Assembly (NCBI GenBank): GCA_021325515.1
Contig: JAJPHC010000060.1
Coordinates: 62,001-126,000, forward strand
Length of the DNA stretch: 64,000 bases
Direction of reading: 5' to 3'
Source of the DNA: Acidobacteriota bacterium
Lineage (GTDB): Bacteria > Acidobacteriota > Thermoanaerobaculia > Gp7-AA8
Shown: one piece after another, positions 16,083 through 61,036 of the stretch
How the letters are laid out: each line of letters opens with the position of its first letter
How positions within the stretch are numbered: position 1 is the first letter of the stretch
Program-made: the position numbers and the translations under genes
The notes under the pieces: generated by a model
What the model was told of the DNA's origin: nothing
Database searches by the model: none
Seen by the model: only the letters and a program-made list of their open reading frames with translations

Positions 16083-16868
16083 GTGAATCAAGACCTTTCT
16101 CTCGCGCTCGCGCTAGCGGACGAAGCCGACGAAGTCACGCTGAAGTTTTTCCGCGCCGCATCGCTGAAGGTGAAAACGAAGCTCGATCGCACACCCGTCA
16201 CGGAAGCGGACCTCGCCGTCGAGACTCTGCTGCGCGAACGCCTCGCCGCATCGCGCCCCGGCGACTCCATCCTCGGCGAGGAATTCGGGGTGAGCGGATC
16301 CTCGCAGCGCTGCTGGATCATCGATCCCATCGACGCCACGAAGAATTTCATGCGCGGAATCCCTGTCTTCGCGACGCTGATCGCACTCGACGATCAGATC
16401 GGCGTCATCAGTGCCCCCGCCCTCGGCATGCGCTGGTGGGCCTCGCGCGGCGAAGGAGCGTTCTGCAACGGACGCGCGATTCGTGCCTCGCGCATCGCGG
16501 CGATCGAAGAGGCGCAGCTCAGCTACGACGACATCACCGGCTGGGACAGCAAGGGACTGCGCGCGAAGTTCCTCGAGCTCGACCGCCGCTGCGGCCGCTC
16601 GAGGGCGTTCGGCGATTTCTGGTCGCACATGCTCGTCGCCGAAGGCGCCTGCGACATCGCGGTCGAGCCGGAAGTCGCGCAGTGGGACATGGCCGCCGTG
16701 AAGGTAATCGTGGAGGAAGCCGGCGGAATGTTCAGCGACCTCTCCGGAAATAGAGGCGCGAACGGCGGCAGCGGAGTTTCGACTAACGGTTTACTGCACT
16801 CGCAGGTACTGAAGATTCTGAATGATGGGACGGATGGGACGGATGGGACCGATGGGACGGATGGGTGA
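16083..16868 (+). CDS. Inositol-monophosphatase-like phosphatase (HisN type), repeat-extended
   Basis: The 261-residue enzyme has the family metal sites: GEEFG, DPIDATKNF and QWDMAAVKVIVEEAGG. It resembles HisN-type histidinol phosphatases or 3'-phosphoadenosine/inositol phosphatases; the substrate is uncertain. The start is GTG, divergent from the ABC genes with 17 bp between. The normal C-terminus (LLHSQVLKIL) is followed by a GTDGTDGTDG tail encoded by a 9-bp repeat array. The stop TGA lies near the apex of that hairpin. Confidence 0.85.
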   Translation: MNQDLSLALALADEADEVTLKFFRAASLKVKTKLDRTPVTEADLAVETLLRERLAASRPGDSILGEEFGVSGSSQRCWIIDPIDATKNFMRGIPVFATLIALDDQIGVISAPALGMRWWASRGEGAFCNGRAIRASRIAAIEEAQLSYDDITGWDSKGLRAKFLELDRRCGRSRAFGDFWSHMLVAEGACDIAVEPEVAQWDMAAVKVIVEEAGGMFSDLSGNRGANGGSGVSTNGLLHSQVLKILNDGTDGTDGTDGTDG

Positions 16869-16916
16869 ACGTCCCATCCGTCCCATCCGTCCCATCCGTC
16901 CCATTCGTCCCATTCC
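16823..16916. repeat. 9-bp-period hairpin (GGGACGGAT family), copy 1
   Basis: The left arm is a run of GATGGGACG nonamers and the right arm a run of CGTCCCATC. The apex reads GGATGGGTGAACGTCCCATC. The left arm is read as protein (GTD repeats) and the TGA at the apex ends the gene. Other copies are at 21741-21878 and 52700-53104. Because 9 bp is three codons, unit gain or loss does not shift the frame. Confidence 0.92.
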
Positions 16917-16925
16917 TCAAACACT

Positions 16926-21734: not shown

Positions 21735-21740
21735 AAAGAA

Positions 21741-21878
21741 GATGGGACGGATAGGACGGATAGGACCGATGGGACCGATGGGAGTTCTCACCCATCCGTC
21801 CTATCCGTCCCATCCGTCCCATCCGTCCCATTCTTCCCATCCGTCCCATCCGTCCCATCCGTCCCATTCGTCCCATCC
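21741..21878. repeat. 9-bp-period hairpin (GGGACGGAT family), copy 2
   Basis: GATGGGACGG/GATAGGACG units (21741-21782) oppose a longer run of CATCCGTCC units (21790-21878). The apex is GATGGGAGTTCTCACCCATC. The right part, read leftward, encodes the Gly-Thr-Asp tail of the flavoprotein gene and its TGA stop, in the same GATGGGTGA context as copy 1. Confidence 0.92.
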
Positions 21879-58022: not shown

Positions 58023-59924
58023 ATGCGACGACTTCTCGCGCTTGCTCTTCTCTTCACCGCCTGCACGACGACCACCACGACGACGAAGCCTGCGAACAAC
58101 GACGACGCTCTGCGCACGCAGTTGCGCAACTACGTCGTCGGCTTCATGCGTCTCAACCCGACCGTCAACACCTACCTCGGCGGTGCGGGACTCGATCCTT
58201 CGCTGCGCGAGGCCGACGGCCGCCTGCGCGATCACTCGTCCGCCGCACTGGCGAAGGAAGACGCATGGCTCGCGGAAGTCCAACACGGCCTCGAGGCGAT
58301 GGATCCGGCAACGCTCTCCGCGTCCTCGCGCATCGACCGCGAGGTCACGCTGGCGCAGATCCGCTTTCAACTGCACCTCCACCAGGTGCGCAAGTACCAG
58401 CAGCGGTCGCTCGACACTTACACCGACGAGCCGTTCCGCGCGGTCGACTTCTACATCCAGGGGCTCACGCAGACCGGCCCCACGACCTACGGAACTCCCG
58501 ATGAATGGCGTCTGATCGTGGCGCGCACGGAAACGATTCCCTGGTATCTGGCGAACGCCGAGCAGGAGTTGCGGGAAGGAATTGCGGCGAACAACACGCC
58601 CGACTTCCGCATGCTCTATCGCAACGGCATCACGACGACCGAGGCCGACGCGAAGTACTTCGACGCGACGCTGACGCAGATCGCGGAAGAGCGTCTCGCG
58701 GCGGGACCGGATCGCGAGAAACTGATCGCGGATCTCCGCGCGGCATCCACCCGAGCCGCAGCCGCGTATCGCCACCTCGGCGCATTCATCGCATCGGCGT
58801 TCTTCGACGATCCTTCGCGCGAGAGCGGCGTGAAGAAGCAGTTCGCCGGCGACCGCTTCGTCTTCGGTGAAAAGGAATATGACTGGGCGCTGAAGAACAA
58901 CCTTCGCGTGAAGAAGACGACGGCCCAGCTCTATGACGAAGCATGGCCGATCGTGCAGGAAACGCAGAAGCAGATGATCGAGCTCGCGCGGGAGATCGGC
59001 GCGAAGCACAACTGGCCGCTTCCTTCCGACGGCAACGCGGCGGTGCGCACCGTATTCGACAAGCTCGGCGAGGACTATCCGAAGTCCGATGCGGAGATGA
59101 TCGGCTGGTATCGCGATGCTGCATTCCGCCTGGTGGACTACGCGCGCAAGACCGGGCTCTTCGACGTGCCGGCCGAGTACAAGCTCGATGTCACCGAGAC
59201 GCCGCCTCCTCTGCGCGCCTCGATCGACGGCGCCGCGTACTATCCTGCGCCGCCCTTCAAGACGTCCGGCGTCGGCCGCTTCTACGTCACGCCAACCGAC
59301 AACGATCCCGCCGCGCTGAAGGAGAACAATCGCGCCGCGATTGCAGATCTCTCCGCACACGAAGGTTTCCCCGGCCACGACTGGTACTACAAGGTGATGA
59401 CCATGTACCGCGATCAGATCTCGCCGGTGCGCTGGCTGACGCCCGGCGCGGTCGAAGATTCGTCGTCGATGTGGGAAGACTCGATGTCCGGCGAAGGGTG
59501 GGCGCTGTACTCCGAAGCGCTGATGGCGGAGCCGCCGGGGTTCTACACGCCGGAGGAACATCTCTATCAGTTGCAGGGCAAGCTCTATCGCGACCTTCGC
59601 GTCCGGGTCGACACAGGAATCCACACCGGCCGACTGTCGTATGACGACGCGGTCGATCTCTTCTCGAACATCGTCGACTTTCAGAGCGGCTCATGCCGCG
59701 ACGCGACGATCTCCGATTCGAAGCGCGCGAGCTGCAAGTCCGCGGAGCGCGCGATCTTCCGCTACTCGAAGTGGCCCACGCAGGCGATCACCTACCGCCT
59801 CGGCAAGGACGAGATCTACGCACTGCGCCACGCCGCCGAAAAGCGCCCGAACTTCGATCTGAAACGGTTCCATCTGGATTTCATCCGAATGGGATCGATC
59901 CCCGCAGGCTATTTCGGGGAATAG
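58023..59924 (+). CDS. DUF885-family lipoprotein, putative metallopeptidase
   Basis: The 633-residue protein starts MRRLLALALLFTACTTTTTT, with a lipobox FTAC and a Thr run. The DUF885 core has HEGFPGHDWYYKV and GEGWALYSEALMAE, the HExxxH-like plus downstream Glu pattern of this zinc-peptidase-like family. It is probably an envelope dipeptidyl carboxypeptidase-like enzyme. The length is usual for the family. Confidence 0.85.
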   Translation: MRRLLALALLFTACTTTTTTTKPANNDDALRTQLRNYVVGFMRLNPTVNTYLGGAGLDPSLREADGRLRDHSSAALAKEDAWLAEVQHGLEAMDPATLSASSRIDREVTLAQIRFQLHLHQVRKYQQRSLDTYTDEPFRAVDFYIQGLTQTGPTTYGTPDEWRLIVARTETIPWYLANAEQELREGIAANNTPDFRMLYRNGITTTEADAKYFDATLTQIAEERLAAGPDREKLIADLRAASTRAAAAYRHLGAFIASAFFDDPSRESGVKKQFAGDRFVFGEKEYDWALKNNLRVKKTTAQLYDEAWPIVQETQKQMIELAREIGAKHNWPLPSDGNAAVRTVFDKLGEDYPKSDAEMIGWYRDAAFRLVDYARKTGLFDVPAEYKLDVTETPPPLRASIDGAAYYPAPPFKTSGVGRFYVTPTDNDPAALKENNRAAIADLSAHEGFPGHDWYYKVMTMYRDQISPVRWLTPGAVEDSSSMWEDSMSGEGWALYSEALMAEPPGFYTPEEHLYQLQGKLYRDLRVRVDTGIHTGRLSYDDAVDLFSNIVDFQSGSCRDATISDSKRASCKSAERAIFRYSKWPTQAITYRLGKDEIYALRHAAEKRPNFDLKRFHLDFIRMGSIPAGYFGE

Positions 59925-59943
59925 CGAAGGTCGTTCGCCGACA

Positions 59944-60012
59944 ATCGCACGCCGGAGGCGTGCCTCCTTCAGAACATTAGCCACGGGTAGCGCCAGAGGC
60001 GCTACCCGTGGC
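59944..60012. repeat. Left REP doublet flanking the RAYT
   Basis: Two hairpins: outer GCACGCC-GGA-GGCGTGC (59947-59963) and inner GCCACGGGTAGCGCC-AGA-GGCGCTACCCGTGGC (59980-60012, split here for reading). Read on the minus strand the unit matches the right copy across about 65 bp. Confidence 0.9.
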
Positions 60013-60029
60013 CACGAGCGCAAGAAACC

Positions 60030-60476
60030 TCACCACAAATACCGCTCGTCGAACACGATCCCATGTTCAACGATGAGCGAGCGATATTCATCCTTGTAGG
60101 TGAAGGCTCTGTGGTGCTCCTGCTGCGTGCGAATGTACGCACGCAGCGCATCCATGCGATACGCGCTCACGGAAAACGCGCCATATCCAACCTGCCACTC
60201 GAAACTCGGCATGCTCAACGCGTCATGCACCCACAACGAGCTTGCACGCTTGATTTCGCGAAGGAAGCCGGCAATGCAATGAGTGGCCTTCAACCCGACC
60301 AGCATGTGAACCTGATCGTGGACTCCACCGATCTCCAACGGAACACCACCACATCGCCGCGTGGATTCGGCGAGGGTTGCGTGTAATCGTTCCTGCCATG
60401 AAGGTGCGATGAACGGCTCGCGATCCTTCGTGCTGAAGATCAGGTGATAGGTGAGATTCGTGTGCGTCGATGGCAT
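60030..60476 (-). CDS. REP-associated tyrosine transposase (RAYT, Y1/IS200-like)
   Basis: From the ATG at 60474-60476 it has 148 residues: HLIFSTKDREPFI near the start, the HUH pair as GGVHDQVHMLVGL, and WQVGYGAFSVS with the Tyr that attacks DNA. EHHRAFTYKDEY follows, as in RAYTs. RAYTs process REP hairpins as single-stranded DNA. The longer upstream frame (12 extra residues) is less likely. It is flanked by inverted REP doublets and appears complete. Confidence 0.9.
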   Translation of the reverse strand: MPSTHTNLTYHLIFSTKDREPFIAPSWQERLHATLAESTRRCGGVPLEIGGVHDQVHMLVGLKATHCIAGFLREIKRASSLWVHDALSMPSFEWQVGYGAFSVSAYRMDALRAYIRTQQEHHRAFTYKDEYRSLIVEHGIVFDERYLW

Positions 60477-60547
60477 GAAGGAACGTTCCCTCGGACTGCG
60501 CCAACAACGCAAATTTTCTACGTGAGGTAGAACGTTCAGCGACCGGT

Positions 60548-60610
60548 GGTAGCGCCTCCGGCGCTACCATCGGCTAATCTCAAGATGGTGGCACGCCTCC
60601 CGGCGTGCGT
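60548..60610. repeat. Right REP doublet flanking the RAYT
   Basis: Inner hairpin GGTAGCGCC-TCC-GGCGCTACC (60548-60568) and outer GCACGCC-TCCC-GGCGTGC (60591-60608), linked by a segment with GGCTAAT. The order mirrors the left copy. It ends one base before the stop of the CoA-binding gene. Confidence 0.9.
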
Positions 60611-61036
60611 TCATCGGCGTAGGTTCGACTCTTCCACCATCAGACAGCGGTCCTGCACGACTTTGATCCCTGCATCTGCGAGCTTTCTTGCTGCTTCGTC
60701 GTTGCGGATTCCGAGCTGGAACCAGACGCTCTTCGGTTTTGCGGCCAGGATGTCGTCGATGTGCGGCGGGATGTCGCTCGAGCGGCGGAAGACGTTCACC
60801 ATGTCGATGGGGCGACCGATGTCGGCCAGCTTGCGGAAGACCGGCTTGCCGAGAATCTCCTTTACTTCCGGGTAGTACACCGGCACGGGGATCACGTCAT
60901 ATCCCGCCTCGTGCATATGCGCGGGGACGTAGAACGCGGCCTGATCGGAGTGCGACTCCGGCTTGATGCCGAGGACTGCGATCGTCCGAGTTTCGCGAAT
61001 GACGTCGAGGATTTCGTTGGGGTCGGTGATGATCAT
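60611..61036 (-). CDS. CoA-binding protein (YccU-like)
   Basis: The 141-residue protein has the single Rossmann-like CoA-binding fold: TIAVLGIKPESHSDQAA, YPEVKEILGKPVFRKLADI and WFQLGIRNDEAARKLADAGI, ending CLMVEE. Function in the cell unknown. The chosen ATG gives MIITDPNEI; a five-residue longer start is possible. Confidence 0.88.
   Translation of the reverse strand: MIITDPNEILDVIRETRTIAVLGIKPESHSDQAAFYVPAHMHEAGYDVIPVPVYYPEVKEILGKPVFRKLADIGRPIDMVNVFRRSSDIPPHIDDILAAKPKSVWFQLGIRNDEAARKLADAGIKVVQDRCLMVEESNLRR

Follow-up and report, generated by a model that had tools for sequence, protein, structure and literature searches.

TnpAY1 transposases have been divided into class 1 (the IS200 TnpA proteins, with subclasses 1.1 and 1.2), class 2 (TnpAREP/RAYT, recognized by a Y-x3-NP motif), and class 3 (PMC6006769). 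Subclass 1.2, with its Y-x3-Q-x2-HH motif and a median length of 148 aa, has been reported mainly from Cyanobacteria and Bacteroidetes and without REPs (Quentin et al. 2018, PMC6006769). The 26 Y1 genes known as TIRYTs belong to subclass 2.1 (20 of them) and to subclasses 2.2 or 2.5 (the other six), and none to subclass 1.2 (Quentin 2018, PMC6006769). Acido-Lenti-1 is a 46-nt motif held in Rfam as RF01687 and typed there as an sRNA. In the accessible part of the article by Weinberg et al. (2010), it is 'probably' an RNA, without function (PMC2864571), and the accessible part of a 2026 paper presents it as little known and proposes that it controls neighbouring genes (PMC13298647). The portions of the literature naming Acido-Lenti-1 that were available to us yielded no connection with a transposase.

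Here we describe an Acidobacteriota locus located in a 64,000-nucleotide stretch of DNA (hereafter, the window, meaning the whole stretch analysed) that brings these themes together. We consider it probable, at roughly three chances in four, that it represents a REPtron-like module of a type to which no repeats had been assigned earlier, in which a subclass-1.2 Y1 HUH transposase is combined with a cognate inverted repeat of its own, a repeat that in relatives is Acido-Lenti-1, with the focal copy being divergent and probably weakened.

A subclass-1.2 gene between inverted two-hairpin units

The features of the locus, with their positions in the window, are as follows:

58023-59924, plus strand: DUF885 gene, converging on the module
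59947..60608, no strand: the entire bracketed module, ~662 bp, between the converging DUF885 and CoA_binding_2 genes
59947..59963, plus strand: hairpin A of the left unit (GCACGCC GGA GGCGTGC)
59977..59980, plus strand: TTAG foot of the left unit, directly 5' of hairpin B (NTAG foot in relatives)
59981..60011, plus strand: hairpin B of the left unit, with a 14-bp stem that has GGTAGCGCC inside it
60030..60476, minus strand: Y1 (IS200-like) transposase gene, 148 aa, TnpAY1 subclass 1.2, with DQVH replacing DHVH and a predicted catalytic Tyr114
60543..60573, minus strand: hairpin B of the right (inverted) unit
60574..60577, minus strand: TTAG foot of the right unit (CTAA on the plus strand)
60591..60608, minus strand: hairpin A of the right unit
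60611-61036, minus strand: CoA_binding_2 gene, converging on the module

The minus-strand ORF 60030-60476 encodes 148 aa plus a stop codon and matches the Pfam family Y1_Tnp with a value of 5.4e-18. Its tyrosine motif, YIRTQQEHH, corresponds to the Y-x3-Q-x2-HH signature of TnpAY1 subclass 1.2, and its length and the pair W94-Q95, found in 78 of the 78 aligned family members, also agree with that subclass. Tyr114, Trp94, and Gln95 are invariant in this alignment, and Q118 is present in 77 of the 78 sequences. The DH[IV]H (HuH) motif of the subclass reads DQVH (QuH) in the focal protein, with a glutamine (Q55) in place of the first histidine, a residue conserved as histidine in 76 of 77 relatives. 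Judging from these residues, the protein is a member of subclass 1.2 by descent, an assignment that does not extend to intact catalysis, and the loss of a metal ligand at Q55 probably weakens its catalytic activity. Identity with the class-2 RAYT/TnpAREP proteins, the label used in the earlier note, was rejected, given that the focal motif lacks Y-x3-NP. An AlphaFold model of the protein, built from five sequences (pLDDT 78, pTM 0.70), has as its closest solved structures the IS200/IS605 TnpA proteins of ISDra2 and IS608, with RAYT 4er8 well below them. These top structures, together with the class-1 Y1 fold and a match to NCBIfam transpos_IS200 under its cut-off, could suggest a conventional IS200/IS605 insertion sequence carrying subterminal hairpins. 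We regard this as highly improbable: whereas IS200/IS605 elements are multi-copy and have distinct left and right subterminal hairpins, the focal gene is present in a single copy in its genome, carries the motif of subclass 1.2 and not that of 1.1, and is bounded at both ends by inverted copies of one and the same unit, which also exists in gene-less form.

The inverted copies of a two-hairpin unit of ~65 nt that had been noticed around the 148-aa ORF are real. The arms of the inverted repeat (59954-60006 and 60548-60600) measure 53 nt with 81% complementarity and have an outer extension (59936-59955 and 60600-60619), and a Smith-Waterman alignment between the left flank and the reverse complement of the right one scores 73, whereas the best of 50 shuffles reaches 29. 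Folded as single-stranded DNA, each unit forms two separate hairpins (z = -7.95 and -4.95; equally stable shuffles, 0/200). On both sides, going toward the gene, hairpin A comes first, followed by a 17-nt linker whose last bases are TTAG and then by hairpin B. The unpaired foot is this TTAG, contained in ATTAGCC (GGCTAAT in the earlier reading). GTAG, which the same note had placed at the foot of the hairpin, was rejected in that position, as GGTAGCGCC is paired within the stem of hairpin B. Because the hairpin loops of the focal units are 3 nt long, an exact search for a pattern with 4-nt loops matched nothing. Elsewhere in the window, matches to eukaryotic microRNA families under the gathering score (16817-16922 and 21736-21827) are almost certainly due to chance.

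Conserved anatomy of the flanks in relatives

Protein searches detected relatives of the transposase in 26 of 148 class-level genomes, a count that includes the window's own genome, and in 66 of 297 genomes from a phylum-level draw. When the left flank of each gene was compared with its reverse-complemented right flank (300 bp each, with a threshold score of at least 40), 44 of 54 own pairs reached the threshold, versus 63 of 2862 pairs made of mismatched loci; of 113 control intervals taken within these loci, none did. The held-out set, 26 loci from other classes that were never used for parameter setting, gave 20 of 26 own pairs, 18 of 650 mismatched pairs, and 2 of 122 control intervals, such that mismatched pairs exceed the threshold in 2-3% of cases. 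The absence of REPs or IS200 ends reported for subclass 1.2 is overturned by these inverted two-hairpin units, found in 44/54 and 20/26 relatives.

The sequences of the hairpins vary among loci, with left and right copies closely similar inside one locus. We used a sequence-independent detector, defined by hairpin A, a linker, AGC, and hairpin B. In 44.0 kb of gene flanks it retrieved 77 units, whereas the remaining 105.6 kb of those loci gave 5 and shuffled sequences gave none. The linker together with half of hairpin A measured 18-20 nt in 68 of these 77 units, and the foot was GTAG in 31/77 and any NTAG in 55/77. With regard to the GT[AG]G foot of RAYT substrates, the focal inverted units carry TTAG, and relatives most often have GTAG. 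The common anatomy in relatives is hairpin A, ~12 nt, NTAG, and hairpin B, and the units around their genes face inward or outward on either strand. Pair counts in our alignment A2, where one linker base was removed from the last two rows with no pair affected, are biased because the detector required pairing. The same bracketed arrangement is found around homologues from Planctomycetota (L005 and L007), KSB1 (L008), and a plasmid of the Bacteroidota Persicobacter (L212). A further Bacteroidota gene resembling subclass 1.2, on a Bernardetia plasmid (L213, 1201-1668), is flanked by inverted AT-rich repeats that contain two hairpin-A-like elements and GTAG, without a clear hairpin B.

Dispersed units, Acido-Lenti-1, and class-2 Y1 genes

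The units are also dispersed in the genomes that carry the gene. R1, a covariance model built from 19 flank units, found at least five copies in 22 of the 26 gene-bearing genomes versus 4 of the 122 others, and three of these four R1-rich genomes (G014, G090, and G109) are 66-83% complete. Since R1 was trained partly on tested genomes, more weight goes to the independent test with Rfam's own RF01687 model, applied to the 297 genomes of the phylum-level draw (Acidobacteriota). RF01687, which matches the two-hairpin units of relatives on the reverse strand, is present in 58 of the 66 gene-bearing genomes versus 19 of the 231 others (odds ratio 81, Fisher 5e-36; both genome-level comparisons ignore phylogeny). 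The motif reaches its gathering score in 20 of 80 relative loci; of the gathering-level matches at the 80 gene loci, 37 lie no farther than 400 bp away (69 kb in all) and 4 in the other 157 kb. Copy numbers per genome are lower bounds, reaching at least ~42 among the matches listed for R1 and at least 20 among those for RF01687. The association of RF01687 with subclass-1.2 Y1 transposases is strongly supported, and the mechanism behind it moderately so.

The dispersed copies have a defined shape. Solo copies in G109 start sharply at A|hairpin A, with base -1 being A in 29/29, and run on through NTAG, hairpin B, ~20 nt, and a second hairpin A with an identical GACAGA tail; the flanking sequences diverge beyond this tail. 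Inverted pairs are frequent among its dispersed copies. Another genome (G323) contains two subclass-1.2 genes with two different units, each internally matched, and one of these gene-flanking units shares its family with the dispersed copies of that genome.

GC-rich hairpins downstream of genes can serve as terminators, which would fit an unlikely alternative in which the repeats are structured ncRNAs (the Acido-Lenti-1 sRNA), terminators, or regulatory elements lying by chance beside the transposase gene. The Rfam typing as sRNA, the 'probably' RNA status given in the accessible part of Weinberg et al. (2010, PMC2864571), and the regulation of neighbouring genes proposed in that of the 2026 paper (PMC13298647) point in the same direction. 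By contrast, several observations argue for a DNA element: the inverted pairs flank one gene family on both sides, inward or outward and on either strand; the two copies of a locus resemble each other, and hairpin sequences differ among loci; copies occur as inverted pairs with sharp ends; RF01687 has 0 matches in 14 well-known control genomes; and class-2 Y1 genes in RF01687-bearing genomes lack the units. A transcript may nevertheless arise from the units as a by-product.

These class-2 genes also bear on a second alternative, which we judge quite unlikely, namely that the gene was inserted into, or became flanked by, older REP-like repeats mobilised by another transposase (e.g., a class-2 RAYT), with the subclass-1.2 protein making no use of them. 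Some unit-rich genomes indeed lack a subclass-1.2 gene and several of them carry class-2 Y1 genes, and REPs can be targets of IS elements according to the part of the literature available to us. The Y1 genes of those RF01687-bearing genomes in which no subclass-1.2 gene was detected are nearly all class 2. Yet units bracket none of the 17 class-2 genes whose two flanks could both be read in such genomes, whereas most subclass-1.2 genes are bracketed by a locus-specific matched pair. Three of those Y1 genes lie between inverted repeats of the TIRYT type, which have no relation to the units. Examples of class-2 Y1 genes inside such long, TIRYT-like inverted repeats are L199 (G207:C36:36783-37121), L185, and L186, one such repeat being GGCGGACAGGTGTTCACAAGTTCACAGCTAAT on both sides. 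Four genomes (G181, G275, G289, and G324) contain many RF01687 copies (14-20 or more), and neither a subclass-1.2 gene nor any Y1_Tnp match was detected in them; gene loss after dispersal is one option to explain this, as are an assembly gap and another mobilising enzyme.

Returning to a subclass-1.2 enzyme acting on its cognate repeat, its mode of action may be envisaged by analogy with IS200/IS605 TnpA and TnpAREP. When the DNA becomes single-stranded, e.g., on the lagging strand, the enzyme would recognise the foot and the hairpin, and Tyr114 would cleave and then rejoin this single-stranded substrate. Repeat units or inverted pairs of them would be copied or moved in this way, and the gene would be carried between two units. 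From this analogy we infer binding, cleavage, and mobility for the family, and from Q55 a likely loss of activity at the focal locus. Extending this to the Rfam motif, we find it fairly likely that Acido-Lenti-1 serves subclass-1.2 Y1 transposases as ssDNA hairpin substrate and as the unit they disperse, the two forming a class-1 REP/RAYT-like system that arose apart from the class-2 RAYT systems and occurs in Acidobacteriota, Planctomycetota, KSB1, and Bacteroidota, with the focal locus as a late, possibly domesticated or decaying case with a QuH active site.

The unit is scarce in the focal genome. Apart from the two flanking units there are three strong copies (C14:4379, C18:1405, and C14:26604), making ~5 good copies, and about three weak ones (C40, C41, and C55). 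Neither R1 nor RF01687 matched the focal-genome units, the two flanking ones lying under the RF01687 gathering score of 37 bits, because of their longer linker and long hairpin B, and a separate model, R2, was therefore built. The focal locus thus represents the family in a divergent, low-copy, and possibly decayed form. The further genome copies anticipated in the earlier note do exist, in small number. Its view of the locus as a plausible mobile or domesticated module is borne out as far as the REPtron-like arrangement goes, which is well supported and has inverted flanks that are general in relatives, whereas the idea that it generates REPs in this lineage sits poorly with ~5 good copies and Q55.

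In a related genome (G016), an orthologous pair of converging DUF885 and CoA_binding_2 genes occurs without the transposase module, as would be expected after either insertion or loss. The DNA between the two genes there bears no relation to the focal one, and neither an exact empty site nor borders can be read in it. In this interval (L174, G016:C21), a different hairpin repeat, GTGCGGGCGTCTCGCCCGC, occupies the place where the module would sit. No clean insertion at an empty site appeared among the G016, G260/G297, and G181/G323 comparisons. The genomes G260 and G297, from species ~94-96% identical, differ by indels of 37-322 bp made of repeat-unit pieces within arrays, and unit number therefore changes by array expansion and contraction; these indels are sited on C1 around 2.43 and 2.47 Mb (L214-L233). 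G181 and G323 have a unit at the same site, and G281 and G193 lack the whole surrounding stretch.

Comparison with known systems

An orphan Rfam motif, RF01687, thus gains a concrete and testable partner enzyme, and our results suggest that class 1, like class 2, includes Y1 transposases that disperse repeats. Many 'Acido-Lenti-1 ncRNA' annotations, including those behind the recent speculation that neighbouring protease genes are regulated by them, may mark a DNA repeat.

The focal protein resembles the described members of TnpAY1 subclass 1.2 (PMC6006769) in its Y-x3-Q-x2-HH motif, WQ pair, length of 148 aa, and low copy number, and departs from them in its DQVH motif; moreover, whereas the subclass was reported without REPs, the focal gene and its Acidobacteriota relatives are bracketed by inverted two-hairpin repeats. 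The two-hairpin unit of relatives is the 46-nt Acido-Lenti-1 motif (RF01687) read on the opposite strand. It is described as an RNA in the accessible part of its original report (PMC2864571), whereas the evidence presented here favours a transposase-tied DNA repeat. The focal unit differs from RF01687 in its 17-nt linker and long hairpin B and falls below the model. TIRYT/TIRtron elements (Di Nocera et al. 2013, PMC3733652) likewise combine a Y1 gene with inverted repeats in Acidobacteria, but their long TIRs are unrelated to the two-hairpin unit. The RAYT/TnpAREP REPtrons, with their REPs and REPINs, share with the present system a Y1 gene amid inverted hairpin repeats, dispersed intergenic copies, inverted dimers, and GTAG as the commonest foot (here, in relatives). 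In contrast with them, the focal protein belongs to class 1 and lacks Y-x3-NP, and the present unit adds a foot-less hairpin A at a fixed spacing, often repeated past hairpin B.
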